Source: Microbispora hainanensis
Lineage (GTDB): Bacteria; Actinomycetota; Actinomycetes; Streptosporangiales; Streptosporangiaceae
DNA: 64,000 nt
Direction of reading: 5' to 3'
Assembly: GCF_006874475.1 (NCBI RefSeq)
Contig: NZ_VIRM01000011.1
Coordinates: 62,001 to 126,000, forward strand
Shown: piece by piece, positions 55,842-61,947 of the stretch
Layout of the letters: the number at the start of each line of letters is the position of its first letter
How positions within the stretch are numbered: position 1 is the first letter of the stretch
Made by a program: the position numbers and the translations under genes
The notes under the pieces: model-generated
What the model saw: the letters and a program-made list of their open reading frames with translations, nothing else
What the model was told of the DNA's origin: nothing
Database searches by the model: none

Positions 55842-57881
55842 CTACTCCGTGACCCTGCGGCGCCGCCACGGCAGCAGGGCGAGAGCGAACGCCAGCAGGC
55901 CCGCGCCCGCCGCGCCCACTCCCGCAGGGGCTCCGGTGAACGGCAACCCCGGGCCGCCGGGGCCGGGGGCGGCGGGACCCGCGGGGGCGCCGCCCATCAT
56001 CGGCGGAGCCTGCTCCTCCCAGGAGACGTCCTCGGGCTCGTCCTCGTACTCCTCTTCGACGCTCTCCTCGGGCTCCGCCTCGAACTCCTCCCCGGGCTCC
56101 TCGAAGTACGCCTCATCCGGCATCTCCTCAGGCGTGATCGGCCCCGTGGGAGAGGCGTCGGCCTGCTGCATGGCGTTCTGCACGGGAAGGGCCCCGCCGT
56201 TGCCACCCCCGCCGGTCGGCGCCACGACGGGCTGGGCCTGAGCTCCGTTGTCGTTCTGGGTGTCGTTGTTGGTGTAGGTCTGGGGCCAGTTGCTCCATGA
56301 CCAGTTCCTCGGCTGGGACCAGTTGTTGTTGTTGTTGCAGTTGCCGTTCGGGCAGTTGTCGTTCTCCACCACTTCCGGCTCCGCGACCTGTCGCGTCACG
56401 GCTACCGGCTCGGTCGCCGCGACGGGCTCGGTCTCCACGACCGGCTCGGTCTCCACGACGGGCTCGGTGTCGGATCGCCGCACGCCGTCCTCGACCGCGT
56501 CGTCGTCCGCGACCACCCTGTCCTCGGCGTCCGCGGCGTCCGCGGCGTCCTCGCCGTCCTCGCCGTCCTCGAACCATGCGCCGTCCTCGAACGTGCCGTC
56601 CGAGCGCAGGCCGTCGTTGCCCACCGGGCCGTACTCACCCGCCAGTGCCAGTGTGTCGGCGGTCGCGGGCTCCTGAGCGGCCGCCACGACCGGGGCCGCC
56701 TTAGCGTCCGTCACGACGTCCGCCGCATTCTGGGCGTCCGCGGCGGCAGGCTCCGCCGCCGTAACCGGCGTTGTCTCCTTGGCCGGCTCCGCGGCCGTGA
56801 TCGGCGTTGCCTCCTTGACGGGCTCCACCTCGGTGGCCGGCGTCGCCTCCTTGACAGGCTCCACCTCGGTGGCCGGCGCTGCCTCCTTCACCGGCTCCGC
56901 GTCCGCGATCGGCGTCGCCTCCTTGACGGGCTCCACCTCGGTGGCCGGCGCTGCCTCCTTCACCGGCTCCACCTCAGTGGCCTCCGGGCCCTTCGCATCC
57001 GCCGCCGCCTGATCGTCGCAGACGCACTCGGCGTCCGCCGCGACAGGAACCACATCCGCGACCGCGTCGGACCGCGCGTCCGCCGCGACCGGCACCGCCG
57101 CCTTAACGGGCTCCACCTCGGTGGCCGGCGCTGCCTCCTTCACCGGCTCCACGTCCGCGATCGGCGCTGCCTCCTTCACCGGCTCCACGTCCGCGATCGG
57201 CGTTGCCTCCTTGACGGGCTCCGCCTCCTTGACTGGCTCCACCTCGGTGGCCGGCGCTGCCTCCTTGACCGGCTCCAGCTCAGTGGCCTCCGGGCCCTTC
57301 GCATCCGCCGGCACCGAATCGTCACAGACGCACTCGGCGTCCGCCGCGACCGGCTCCGCCGCCTTAACGGGCTCCACCTCGGTGGCCGGCGCTGCCTCCT
57401 TCACCGGCTCCAGGTCCGCGATCGGCGTCGCCTCCTTGACGGGCTCCGCCTCCTTCACCGGCTCCACCTCGGCGGGCGGCGCTGCCTCCTTCACCGGCTC
57501 CACCTCAGTGGCCTCCGGGCCCTTCGCATCCGCCGGCACCGAATCGTCACAGACGCACTCGGCGTCCGCCGCGACCGGCACCGCGTCCGTGGCCGCCTCG
57601 CCCTCAGCGGACGCGGCCATAGCCATGGGCTCGACGTCAGCCGGGTCTTGCGTGTTCGGATTCGTCGTGGCGGGTTCCCTCACGCCCACGGTCGCGGCGC
57701 CCGAGGTTCCGTTCTCCGCTCCCCCAAGGGTGTCAAGCGGGGGCGAGTACTGCTCCGGCTGAGTAGCGGACGTCTGCTCGGGTGCATGGGCCTGCGCACT
57801 GGCGATGGCCTGGGTGCCGAGTGTCAGGCCGCCCGCGACCGTCACCGCCAGAAGAACAGGTACAGTATTTTTTCGCGCCAC
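55842..57881 (-). CDS. Cell-wall-anchored LPFTG surface protein with Pro-Val-Lys repeats
   Basis: The protein has 679 aa. The signal peptide is KNTVPVLLAVTVAGGLTLGT then QAIASAQA. A long region of 16 PVK(E/A) units (type EVEPVKEAAPAT) carries three copies of the block AECVCDD followed by (A)DAKGPEAT. Next come an Asp/Glu-rich part, an Asn-rich stretch with NCPNGNC, a Glu-rich part, and the sorting signal GLPFTG with hydrophobic helix and RRRR tail. LPFTG is an LPXTG-type signal, so sortase links it to peptidoglycan. The GTG at 57881 has GGGAG in front. The divergent sortase gene is the likely enzyme. The repeats are extended and charged, as in stalk-like surface proteins; the three CVC pairs are odd for such a protein. 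Confidence 0.87.
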   Translation of the reverse strand: MARKNTVPVLLAVTVAGGLTLGTQAIASAQAHAPEQTSATQPEQYSPPLDTLGGAENGTSGAATVGVREPATTNPNTQDPADVEPMAMAASAEGEAATDAVPVAADAECVCDDSVPADAKGPEATEVEPVKEAAPPAEVEPVKEAEPVKEATPIADLEPVKEAAPATEVEPVKAAEPVAADAECVCDDSVPADAKGPEATELEPVKEAAPATEVEPVKEAEPVKEATPIADVEPVKEAAPIADVEPVKEAAPATEVEPVKAAVPVAADARSDAVADVVPVAADAECVCDDQAAADAKGPEATEVEPVKEAAPATEVEPVKEATPIADAEPVKEAAPATEVEPVKEATPATEVEPVKEATPITAAEPAKETTPVTAAEPAAADAQNAADVVTDAKAAPVVAAAQEPATADTLALAGEYGPVGNDGLRSDGTFEDGAWFEDGEDGEDAADAADAEDRVVADDDAVEDGVRRSDTEPVVETEPVVETEPVAATEPVAVTRQVAEPEVVENDNCPNGNCNNNNNWSQPRNWSWSNWPQTYTNNDTQNDNGAQAQPVVAPTGGGGNGGALPVQNAMQQADASPTGPITPEEMPDEAYFEEPGEEFEAEPEESVEEEYEDEPEDVSWEEQAPPMMGGAPAGPAAPGPGGPGLPFTGAPAGVGAAGAGLLAFALALLPWRRRRVTE
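56760..57600 (-). repeat. Long imperfect repeat array encoding EPVKEA units and three CVCDD blocks
   Basis: At DNA level 30-36 bp units of the type ggctccacctcggtggccgg (plus strand) recur many times. The CVCDD-coding block appears at about 57013, 57323 and 57546. Units differ by single substitutions, so the array is old but still similar along its length. Confidence 0.88.
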
Positions 57882-58142
57882 TTTGGACTCCCGATAACGG
57901 TCGCTCAATTGATAGAGCATTTGCCCGGATTGCCAGCGACATTTCGCTGCTCGACTGTTGTATGCGCCCCTCACAGGGCCGCCTCATTCCGGCGCACGGT
58001 GCTTACCGAAGGATCGTCCAGGTTTTCGCTTCGTTGACCACGACCGCACCGCTGCGGATCGCCGGAGCGGCCTGCCAAAAAAATTCGCCAACGGCCCTCA
58101 TATGGCCGCGGCCCGCGCTCGACAGGCGGCGATACTCGGTCC

Positions 58143-58793
58143 GTGCGCGAAGAGAACGAGGGGGCCGTGCGGACGGTCGTACGGGTCGTCGGCGAGCTGT
58201 GCCTGCCCGCGGGGCTGGTCCTGCTGCTGTTCTACGCGTACCTGCTCTGGGGCACCGGCGCGGAGACCGATCGGGAGCAGCGCGTGCTCCAGCAGCGGCT
58301 CGGCGACGTCTTCGCCAGGCACGGCGAGCACGCGGGGCCCGGTCCGGTGAAGCTCGGCGACGCCCTGGCGCTGCTGCGCATCCCCCGGCTGGGCGCCGGA
58401 TACCGGTACGCGGTGGTCGAGGGCGTCGGGCCTGCGGAGCTGCGCAAGGGCCCCGGCCACTTCCCCGGCACGGCCCTGCCCGGTCAGGTGGGCAACTTCG
58501 TGCTCTCGGGCCACCGCACCACCTACGCCGCGCCGTTCAATCGTCTTGACGAGCTGCGGCGCGGCGACGACATCGTGGTGGACGCGCGGGACGCCCGCTA
58601 CACCTACGAGGTGACGCGCAAGAAGATCGTGGACCCAGGCGAGGTCGACGTCGTCGATCCCGTCCCCGGCCATCCCGGGAAGCGGCCCACGACCGCGCTC
58701 ATGACCATGACCACCTGTCATCCCGAGTTCTCCGCGGCGCAGCGCCTGGTCGTCCAGGGCGTGCTCGTCCGCCGCGAGGAACGCCAGGACTGA
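58143..58793 (+). CDS. Class E sortase
   Basis: The protein has 216 aa. An N-terminal membrane helix lies at about 18-36. The catalytic set is complete: His124 (NFVLSGHRTTY), Cys192 in MTMTTCHPEF (TLxTC-type motif) and Arg201 in AAQRLVV. Class E sortases of actinomycetes attach surface proteins with LPXTG- or LAXTG-like signals to peptidoglycan. The only sorting-signal gene in the window is the divergent LPFTG protein 261 bp away, the probable substrate. The GTG start at 58143 is the best fit; a GTG a few codons on is possible. Confidence 0.93.
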   Translation: MREENEGAVRTVVRVVGELCLPAGLVLLLFYAYLLWGTGAETDREQRVLQQRLGDVFARHGEHAGPGPVKLGDALALLRIPRLGAGYRYAVVEGVGPAELRKGPGHFPGTALPGQVGNFVLSGHRTTYAAPFNRLDELRRGDDIVVDARDARYTYEVTRKKIVDPGEVDVVDPVPGHPGKRPTTALMTMTTCHPEFSAAQRLVVQGVLVRREERQD

Positions 58794-58950: not shown

Positions 58951-59121
58951 CGACGCCGCCCATATGACGAAAGCAGCGGAAAACTGGCCTGTCCCCCGCC
59001 GCACCCGTCCGGCGTACGTATGCGGGTGCCCCACCCGAGTCCGCACCGGTCACCGGCGCGCCGCGCCGCCGGTCCTTCCGGTGTGCCTCGTGGTGGTCAT
59101 CCCCCCGCTGAGGAGAACCCT

Positions 59122-59754
59122 ATGCGCATGTCCCCGATGCGGACGTCACGGTTCCTCCGGACCCGCGTGGCCCTGCTCACGGGAACGGCCGTGCTGCTCA
59201 CGGTGTCACCGGCCCGGGCGGCCGAGCCGGCCGGCGCCACGACGGCGAGCACGGCGGCGAGCACGGCGGCGGGCACGGCGGTGCGCGTGCTGCGGTATGA
59301 CGCGAGCCGCGCCGCCGAGTTCCGCACGGTGATGGACCAGGCCGCGCAGGTGTGGAACGCCACCGTCGCCGAGGTCCGCCTGGTCGCGGGCACGCCCGCC
59401 GACTTCGTGGTGCGTGCCGACGACGGCTGGCCGCGCACGAGCGTCACCAGGCTGGGCCGGGGCACCATCTGGATGGGCAGGGAGGCGACCGCCGAGGGCT
59501 ACTATCCCCTGCGCATCGCCACCCATGAGATCGGCCACGTCCTCGGCCTGCCCGACCGGCGCACCGGCCTGTGCACCGACCTGATGTCCGGTCACAGCGC
59601 CCCGGTGAGCTGCACCAACGCCACCCCGAGCGCCGCGGAGCGCCGCGCGGTCGACGCGAACTTCGCCGGCTCCTCCCTCCGCGCCGGGGAGCCCACCGGC
59701 CGGCTCTTCGTCGACCGTCCGGACGCCGCCCGCGACCCGGTTCCCGCGCCGTAG
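59122..59754 (+). CDS. Snapalysin-like secreted metalloprotease (M7)
   Basis: The protein has 210 aa. The ATG at 59122 is preceded by GAGGAGAA; a signal peptide ends in SPARA (cleavage after residue 33). The zinc site is HEIGHVLGLPD (His135, His139, Asp145), the compact HExxHxxGxxD motif of snapalysin, the small neutral protease of streptomycetes. Two Cys pairs (GLCTD and VSCTN) likely form a disulfide. A short Ala/Thr repeat follows the signal (TTASTAASTAAGTA). No pro-region of note is visible. Confidence 0.9.
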   Translation: MRMSPMRTSRFLRTRVALLTGTAVLLTVSPARAAEPAGATTASTAASTAAGTAVRVLRYDASRAAEFRTVMDQAAQVWNATVAEVRLVAGTPADFVVRADDGWPRTSVTRLGRGTIWMGREATAEGYYPLRIATHEIGHVLGLPDRRTGLCTDLMSGHSAPVSCTNATPSAAERRAVDANFAGSSLRAGEPTGRLFVDRPDAARDPVPAP

Positions 59755-59890: not shown

Positions 59891-59958
59891 CGGTTCAGAG
59901 GGCAACGCGGTTCAGACGGCGACGCGGTTCAGACGGCGGCGCGGTTCAGACGGCGACG
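59891..59958. repeat. Four 17-bp tandem repeats at the mshC stop codon
   Basis: The unit cggttcagacggcgacg occurs four times (59891, 59908, 59925, 59942). The last copy holds the mshC stop codon (plus-strand tca at 59946-59948) and its last codons. The other three repeat that end beyond the gene. Confidence 0.85.
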
Positions 59959-61157
59959 CCGAGGAGCGCGTCGGCGACGTCGCGCACCAGCGCCGGAGAC
60001 GAGGCGTCGTCGCCCTCCTCCGCCGCCCAGGCGTCGATAGCCGCGAGCGCGCCGGGGGCGTCGAGATCGTCGGCGAGGCGCTCACGCACCGCCGACAGCA
60101 CCGGGCCTCCCGCGGGGCCCGCCGGGCGCGCCACCGCGGCCCGCCACCGTGCCAGCCTCTCCTCGGCCGTGGCGAGCTGGTCCGGCGTCCACTCCCAGTC
60201 CGTACGGTAGTGGTGCGCCAGCAGGGCCAGCCGGATGGCCATGGGGTCGGCGGTCTGCCGCAGCCTGGAGACGAACACGAGGTTGCCCCTGGACTTCGAC
60301 ATCTTCTCGCCGTCCAGGCCGACCATGCCCGCGTGGACGTACGCCCGCGCGAACGGCCACTCGCCGGTGGCCACGTGGCCCTCACAGGCGCCCATCTCGT
60401 GGTGGGGGAAGATCAGGTCCGAGCCGCCGCCGGCGACGTCGAAGCCGCTGCCCAGGTTGCGCAGGGCGATGGCGGTGCACTCGATGTGCCAGCCGGGCCT
60501 GCCGCGGCCGAGCGGCGACTCCCAGGACGGCTCTCCCGGGCGTTCCGCCCGCCACAGCAGCCAGTCGAGCGGGTGGCGCTTGCCCTCCCTGCCGGGGTCG
60601 CCCCCGCGCTCGCCGAACAGCTCGAGCATGGTCTCCTCTGAGTAGCCCGAGACCGCGCCGAACTTGGGCGCGGACGCGACCGAGAAGTAGACGTCCCCGT
60701 CGATCTCGTACGTGGCGCCTCGATCGGCCAGCCGGGTGATCAGCTCGGCGATCTCCCCCACGGTCTCGGTGACCCCGACGTACTCGCGGGGCGGCAGGAT
60801 GCGCAGCGCCTCCATGTCGGAGCGGAACAGCTCGATCTCGCGCTCACCGAGGGAACGCCAGTCGGTGCCGGTCGCCTCGGCCCGCTCCAGCAGGGGGTCG
60901 TCCACGTCAGTGGCGTTCTGGGTGTAGTGCACGTCGTGGCCGGCGTCCCGCCATACCCGGTTGACCAGGTCGAAGGCGAGGTAGGTGTTGGCGTGCCCCA
61001 GGTGGGTGGCGTCGTACGGCGTGATCCCGCAGACGTAGAGCCTGGCCTCGCCGGAGGGGGTAGTCTCCCGCACCTCCCGGGCGGCAGTGTCGTACAGACG
61101 GAGCATGAGGCCCGAACCGGGCAGCCTTGGGACATTCGGAGCAGACCACGATCGCAT
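59946..61157 (-). CDS. mshC: MshC, cysteine:glucosaminyl-inositol ligase (mycothiol synthesis)
   Basis: The protein has 403 aa. It joins Cys to GlcN-Ins with ATP, the third step to mycothiol, and derives from cysteinyl-tRNA synthetase. The zinc Cys43 is in [20 protein letters not shown], which also holds the HIGH-type motif. The KMSKS loop is intact in [11 protein letters not shown]. It lacks the anticodon-binding domain of CysRS, and its length fits MshC. The start ATG at 61157 has a TAGGCT element about eight bases upstream, as for metH, so the transcript may be leaderless. The 3' end carries a 17-bp repeat array. Confidence 0.95.
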
Positions 61158-61167
61158 GGTGTGAAGC

Positions 61168-61947
61168 CTATCCGCGCCGCCGGCGGACCCGGTCAGCCGG
61201 TGCGCTCCACGACATGTCGACCTCGTGCCAGGTGGCGGGGTCGTCCGGCTGGGGGCAGAAGTCGTAGCGGAGCCCCTCCTCCGCCACGGCGACCAGCGTG
61301 ATCGAGAGGCTGGCGAAGATCCGCCCATCCGGCAGCCGCCGCCGCATGACCAGCGCGCGGGGATCGTCCCAGGGCACCCCCGCGCCCGAGGCGGGGTCGA
61401 GCCACTCCCCCCAGAACCGCCCGGTCGAGCCGCCCGTCATCCACCCGGGCCGGGCGACCCTGGCGAAGCGGGGCCGGAACCAGGCGGTGCGCGGCTCGCT
61501 CTCGCCCCGGTCCCAGCCGGTGTTCACGATCATGTGCACGCCCGCGGGCAGCTTCTCCTCGGTCAGGGACCTGCCGTCCCAGCTCCACAGGCGTACGCCG
61601 TCGAGCCCGCCGAGGACGAGATGAAAGGGGTCATACCAGGATAAATCGAGCGGCGGGAACTCTCCCGCGGCGGCGGCGAGCAGCGGCAGCTCGCCGCGCG
61701 AGTGACGCCTGCCATCCGCGGCCGCGACGCCGTCACCGTTGAGCAGCGCCGCCACGCGCCGCTTTTCGGGGTCGGCCGCCAGCCAGGTGCCGCCCGCCTG
61801 GAGGTCGCGGCCTCCGATCAGGCCGGGGTACGCGGGCCAGTGCCGGTCCGGCGACATCCACGGCCGCGTGACGAACTCGTCACGCACTCCCGCCAGGAGC
61901 ACCGGCGCGTCCGCCTCCGGCTCGACGCTCACGATGACCGTACACAA
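61168..61947 (-). CDS. NRDE/TANGO2-like protein
   Basis: The protein has 259 aa. Cys2 after the start Met ([13 protein letters not shown]) and the N-R-D-E-type motif position ([22 protein letters not shown]) place it in the NRDE family, related to TANGO2. Members look like Ntn-hydrolase folds with Cys2 as nucleophile; bacterial roles are unknown. It lies ten bp before mshC on the same strand. A near-constant neighbour of mshC is SCO1664-type, so this gene may be an insertion. Confidence 0.82.

Follow-up and report, generated by a model that had tools for sequence, protein, structure and literature searches.

A probable sortase-anchored coat protein with paired cysteines in Microbispora hainanensis and its relatives in Streptosporangiaceae

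In the window, that is, the whole stretch of 64,000 nucleotides of Microbispora hainanensis that was analysed, the gene at 55842..57881 on the minus strand encodes a protein of 679 aa which is best explained, with reasonable probability, as a coat protein of hyphae or spores, disordered, paired through disulfides and anchored by a class E sortase, that would act in the manner of SspA of Actinoplanes or the long chaplins. Secretion and anchor signals, the pairing with a sortase gene, an even number of cysteines and a conserved upstream element can all be read from the sequence, with good support for the anchor signals and the cysteine pairing. A developmental role is suggested by the biology of class E sortases in Streptomyces and Actinoplanes, and by the confinement of the family to Streptosporangiaceae.

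First of all, the open frame of 679 codons starts with GTG and is preceded by a ribosome site, GGGAG, at 57888-57892. The G+C content by codon position is 77/52/88% in this frame versus 51/79/87% in a long antisense ORF, and comparison with the nearest relative gives a dN/dS of 0.57, the sortase neighbour being more constrained (0.27); from the codon-position values and the dN/dS it follows that the frame is translated, and that its protein changes fast. The preliminary description had allowed for the frame proving untranslated, which these values speak against, and chance or a wrong frame is ruled out by the coding statistics and the existence of relatives. An open frame of 213 aa lies antisense to the repeat region (57121-57762, plus strand); its codon-position composition is unlike that of a gene, and it is a by-product of the repeats.

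The protein (all features on the minus strand) begins with a signal peptide, VARKNTVPVLLAVTVAGGLTLGTQAIASAQ (residues 1-30, 57792..57881), recognised by inspection and by the family-conserved pattern VARKN..PILLA..AGG, followed by YSPPL (residues 45-49, 57735..57749), which is how the family motif Y[PS]PPxP appears in this protein. Then come three CVCDD blocks, at residues 107-125 (AECVCDDSVPADAKGPEAT, 57507..57563), 182-200 (57282..57338) and 284-302 (56976..57032), in which CVCDD itself begins at residues 109, 184 and 286. The second and third blocks lie among the PVK repeats (residues 129-356, 56814..57497), which number exactly 16, each of them EPVK and 14 of them EPVKEA; Tandem Repeats Finder reports arrays of 36/108-bp period in this region, so the repeats are not due to chance. 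Further on, an Asn/Trp-rich segment (residues 507-546, 56244..56363) contains CPNGNC (residues 510-515, 56337..56354), a C-x4-C pair common to most Microbispora members, and a Glu-rich segment follows (residues 584-623, 56013..56132). The C-terminus carries the sorting motif LPFTG (residues 646-650, 55932..55946), invariant in alignment A1, and a hydrophobic stretch with an RRRR tail (55845..55931). Signal peptide, LPFTG, hydrophobic stretch and RRRR are kept in the relatives from other Microbispora genomes, and of 12 relatives searched for the anchor domain PF00746, 7 match it weakly. The signal peptide, the 16 PVK repeats, the three CVCDD blocks, the Asn- and Glu-rich parts and LPFTG had all been described before and were borne out, while the fourth cysteine pair, CPNGNC, and the divergent class E sortase had been missed.

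The repeat region varies strongly. The nearest relative has 498 aa, 3 PVK and a single broken block, RAC, versus 679 aa and 16 PVK here, in agreement with the length variation by repeat number that had been expected. Counterparts of CVCDD are found as CEC in the split gene of G014, as CGC in one paralogue of G004 and as a decayed RAC in G009; the remaining Microbispora genomes have no CxC block, and among whole family members CxC is restricted to the window protein and G004. Judged from these sequences, CVCDD is a local, recently multiplied form of the cysteine pairing found throughout the family. A rather less likely reading, though one with some weight, is that the CVCDD blocks are functionless, being a slippage-amplified and fast-drifting disordered spacer in which the cysteines hitch-hike, so that the anchor and the C-terminal part alone matter. 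The copies are near-identical, hence recent, which fits such a history, as do the single broken block of the nearest relative and the lack of CxC in most Microbispora members; however, CxC persists as CEC and CGC in similar context in two other genomes, and the even cysteine parity extends over the whole family.

The wider family was searched for with a profile, A2, built from one Microbispora member and short relatives, and members were found in many Streptosporangiaceae genomes. Outside Streptosporangiaceae, a class-level search matched bare sorting signals and nothing more, so that the full architecture is confined to this group. In total, 67 members, each with 40 or more mature residues, were collected from about 60 genomes, some of them looser members recognised by anchor and start alone. 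The common plan consists of a signal peptide, Y[PS]PPxP, a variable part, closely spaced cysteines, LP(F/M)TGAP and RRRRS; the window protein fits it with YSPPL, 8 mature cysteines, LPFTGAP..RRRR and the upstream element. This Y[PS]PPxP-Cys-LPxTG family has apparently not been described before. The commonest cysteine spacing is 4, then 3 and 2, and the pairing is mostly C-x3-C or C-x4-C. Microbispora members usually have a C-x4-C pair beside an Asn-rich segment, and many short relatives carry their cysteines 6-17 residues ahead of the anchor, for example DDCGGGCGGGGCGPGCE and NCSPSCGGCSGCQ. Paired cysteines had been called unusual in wall-anchored proteins; they are no peculiarity of the window protein but the rule in this family, across several genera. 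The homologues mostly lack CxC as such, yet they keep the pairing and the sorting signal.

The number of cysteines is even in 54 of the 56 collected members that have any in the mature part, versus 72 of 183 control ORFs from the same loci, which were chosen by codon-position composition and not from curated annotation (Fisher p = 8e-16). Roughly 64% of exported mycobacterial proteins are stated to have an even number (PMC12421883), and against this benchmark the family also stands apart (p = 7e-9); the members are related, so both p-values are guides. With one member per cluster, the clusters being formed by a simple word-sharing rule, 35 of 36 are even. Since even numbers prevail so far beyond the controls, it is very probable that the cysteines work in pairs, as disulfides, and pairing is to be regarded as the family rule; the disulfides proposed earlier for the window protein are thus very likely. 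Pairing is not indispensable, because in 11 of the collected members the mature part is free of cysteine, and the G009 protein has three. For the oxidation step, the genome encodes DsbA-like proteins (three PF13462 matches). VKOR (PF07884), the usual partner of DsbA in actinobacteria, was looked for and not found in the window genome and 12 other Microbispora genomes (13 of 15), which counts against this step.

It has also been considered that the protein binds metal, CVCDD and C-x4-C holding Cu or Zn with the help of acidic neighbours, as a store or sink bound to the wall. The Asp-Asp after CxC and the Asp- or His-rich cysteine clusters of some relatives (DDDDCGGGCGGGGCGPGCE; GCGHGCHRH) would suit such a function, but the even parity is a mark of disulfides, whereas metal sites use odd numbers too, and exported thiols are normally oxidised; this reading is therefore distinctly improbable.

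Beyond the anchor motifs, no known domain was found in the window protein with Pfam, NCBIfam or solved structures. The AlphaFold models show no fold either, with a mean pLDDT of 36.6 for the whole protein and 48.8 for the C-terminal Asn/Trp part (10 sequences), values obtained from one sequence only or from an alignment of little depth. The models point, weakly, to a mature part that is probably disordered and floppy. These results also bear on the possibility that the protein is an adhesin or an S-layer-like decoration for surface or host contact and not a developmental coat. Repeat stalks of fast-changing length are indeed common in wall-anchored adhesins, but neither the domain and structure searches nor the models give a folded binding domain, and the full architecture is restricted to Streptosporangiaceae, so that an adhesin appears unlikely.

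The preferred explanation, a sortase-anchored coat protein, draws on the gene next to it. At 58143..58793 on the plus strand, divergent from the surface gene, lies a class E sortase gene (NF033747, 226 bits, cut-off 160), whose product is closest in solved structure to 5go5, 5uus and 5go6, with 5cuw (SrtE1 of S. coelicolor) lower in the list. The genome has three other sortases, all scoring as class F, which leaves this as the only one of class E found there. Surface gene and class E sortase are both present in 14 of 15 Microbispora genomes, G005 being without either; G014 is counted among the 14, with its surface gene divided between two contigs and the sortase on one of them. In all Microbispora genomes that have either gene, the sortase adjoins the surface gene divergently, and in G004, G007 and G012 there are two surface genes in tandem, whereas a single member was found in M. 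rosea ATCC 12950. The same divergent pair occurs in two genomes of genus g74, as well as in the examined genomes of g64 (G115, G118) and g23 (G232, G036). Many family members in other genera, however, have no neighbouring sortase gene, which counts against the preferred explanation. As for the surroundings, a snapalysin-like M7 metalloprotease (59020-59754, plus strand) adjoins the sortase in several, though not all, genomes, and a gene read as probable mshC (59946-61328, minus strand) is next in line in most.

Class E sortase substrates typically carry LAXTG signals, though not obligatorily. The substrate-type signal beside the sortase is LPFTG at every readable Microbispora locus, and the sortase retains a GHRTTY loop, the TY of the beta3/beta4 loop. 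The loop tyrosine has been proposed to favour LAXTG over LPXTG (PMC5148588), and its retention counts against processing of LPFTG; this is tempered by SrtE1, which cleaves both signals with a preference of just twofold (PMC5148588). In Actinoplanes, LPVTG appears to be the signal used by SrtE, which anchors a disordered spore protein, SspA (PMC13251363, PMC13293333). Because of these two enzymes the tyrosine is not a strict predictor, and we infer that the LPFTG protein is processed by the neighbouring class E sortase. Elsewhere (L220:749-5910), two secreted proteins flanked by two class F sortases have TGGGGDAGPDARL.VL..hydrophobic..R in common at their C-termini, not LPXTG; such C-termini are possibly an unusual sorting signal for class F sortases.

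The surface gene is also marked by a 37-bp conserved upstream element, GTCAACGAAGCGAAAACCTGGACGATCCTTCGGTAAG, at 58002..58038 on the minus strand. Alignment of the 5′ regions gave the conserved block GTCAAYnnnnnGRRAACn(6-7)GATCnTTCGGTAAG, and a search allowing up to 3 mismatches found the element at a single place in the 8.7-Mb genome. Across 338 Streptosporangiaceae genomes, 32 sites of 37-38 bp were found in 31 genomes, each of them at a gene of the family or a remnant of one, and a reversed-pattern control had 0 matches in the same 338. Every readable site lies roughly 80-125 bp ahead of a family gene. In G230 and G334 the element fronts a remnant or decayed relative: the G334 gene has a family-like start and no recognisable anchor motif, and in G230 (L237) the signal peptide of the family is fused in frame to an RRRSSCAK tail behind an intact element, apparently a natural deletion remnant. 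In nearly all sites a TATAAC-like hexamer follows 38-39 bp after the element; in the window this possible -10 box is TACAAC (57957..57962, minus strand), TATAAC in most relatives. An RNA element in the 5′ region was considered and dropped, there being no Rfam match and a folding z-score of -0.73. When the BldN, WhiG and MtrA-like promoter classes were compared by eye, none clearly fitted the element. The element would be an activator-dependent promoter dedicated to this family of surface proteins, and GTCAAC and GAGAAC, 11 bp apart, could form a direct repeat as used by OmpR-type regulators.

Taken together, the coat protein would work as follows. After export by the signal peptide, the neighbouring class E sortase would cut LPFTG and fix the protein covalently to peptidoglycan, so that the mature disordered spacer, rich in Pro, Glu, Lys and Val, would reach through the wall with its cysteine pairs. 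Outside the membrane the cysteines would be oxidised in pairs: CPNGNC would most likely close a small loop, and the CVC pairs would either form local loops under strain or connect blocks or adjacent chains. Expression would start from the gene's own promoter through the conserved upstream site, probably while aerial hyphae or spores are growing. It may further be speculated, as a rather doubtful extension, that neighbouring disordered chains are oxidised into a network at aerial emergence, giving a wall-anchored, disulfide-set sheath, with the single-target element as a dedicated developmental switch and the family filling in Streptosporangiaceae the role of the chaplins in Streptomyces. It is mainly in Streptomyces that the wall-anchored layers on the surface of aerial hyphae and spores have been well studied. 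Should the family be such a coat in Streptosporangiaceae, it would offer a gene, a sortase and a promoter site for studying how a second large group of filamentous soil bacteria builds its surface. Cysteine pairing is now seen as a family rule among sortase-anchored proteins, and the locus would add to the evidence that class E sortases can act on LPXTG substrates even when they have the tyrosine proposed to select alanine.

Among known systems, SspA, CwpA and CwpB of Actinoplanes missouriensis are class E sortase substrates with an LPVTG signal, comparable to the LPxTG of the window protein, and SspA is predicted to be disordered and is displayed on spores, a likeness by description (PMC13293333, PMC13251363). 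They differ in belonging to Micromonosporaceae and in having the sortase gene at a separate locus, and, unlike for the window protein, no cysteine clusters of SspA are reported in the parts of these papers that were consulted (PMC13293333, PMC13251363). The long chaplins ChpA-C of Streptomyces are likewise anchored by class E sortase on aerial hyphae and bear cysteines, as proposed here, but they have chaplin domains and LAXTG, whereas the window protein has LPFTG and no Pfam match to the chaplin domain, which speaks against its being a long chaplin. In composition only, and with no relationship, the EPVKEA repeats are analogous to the PEVK segments of titin and other springs of Pro, Glu, Val and Lys. 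Finally, the neighbouring sortase matches the class E structures of SrtE1 (5cuw), 5go5, 5go6 and 5uus, and differs from those enzymes in that the P3 residue of its apparent substrate is Pro instead of Ala in every Microbispora genome with a readable anchor.
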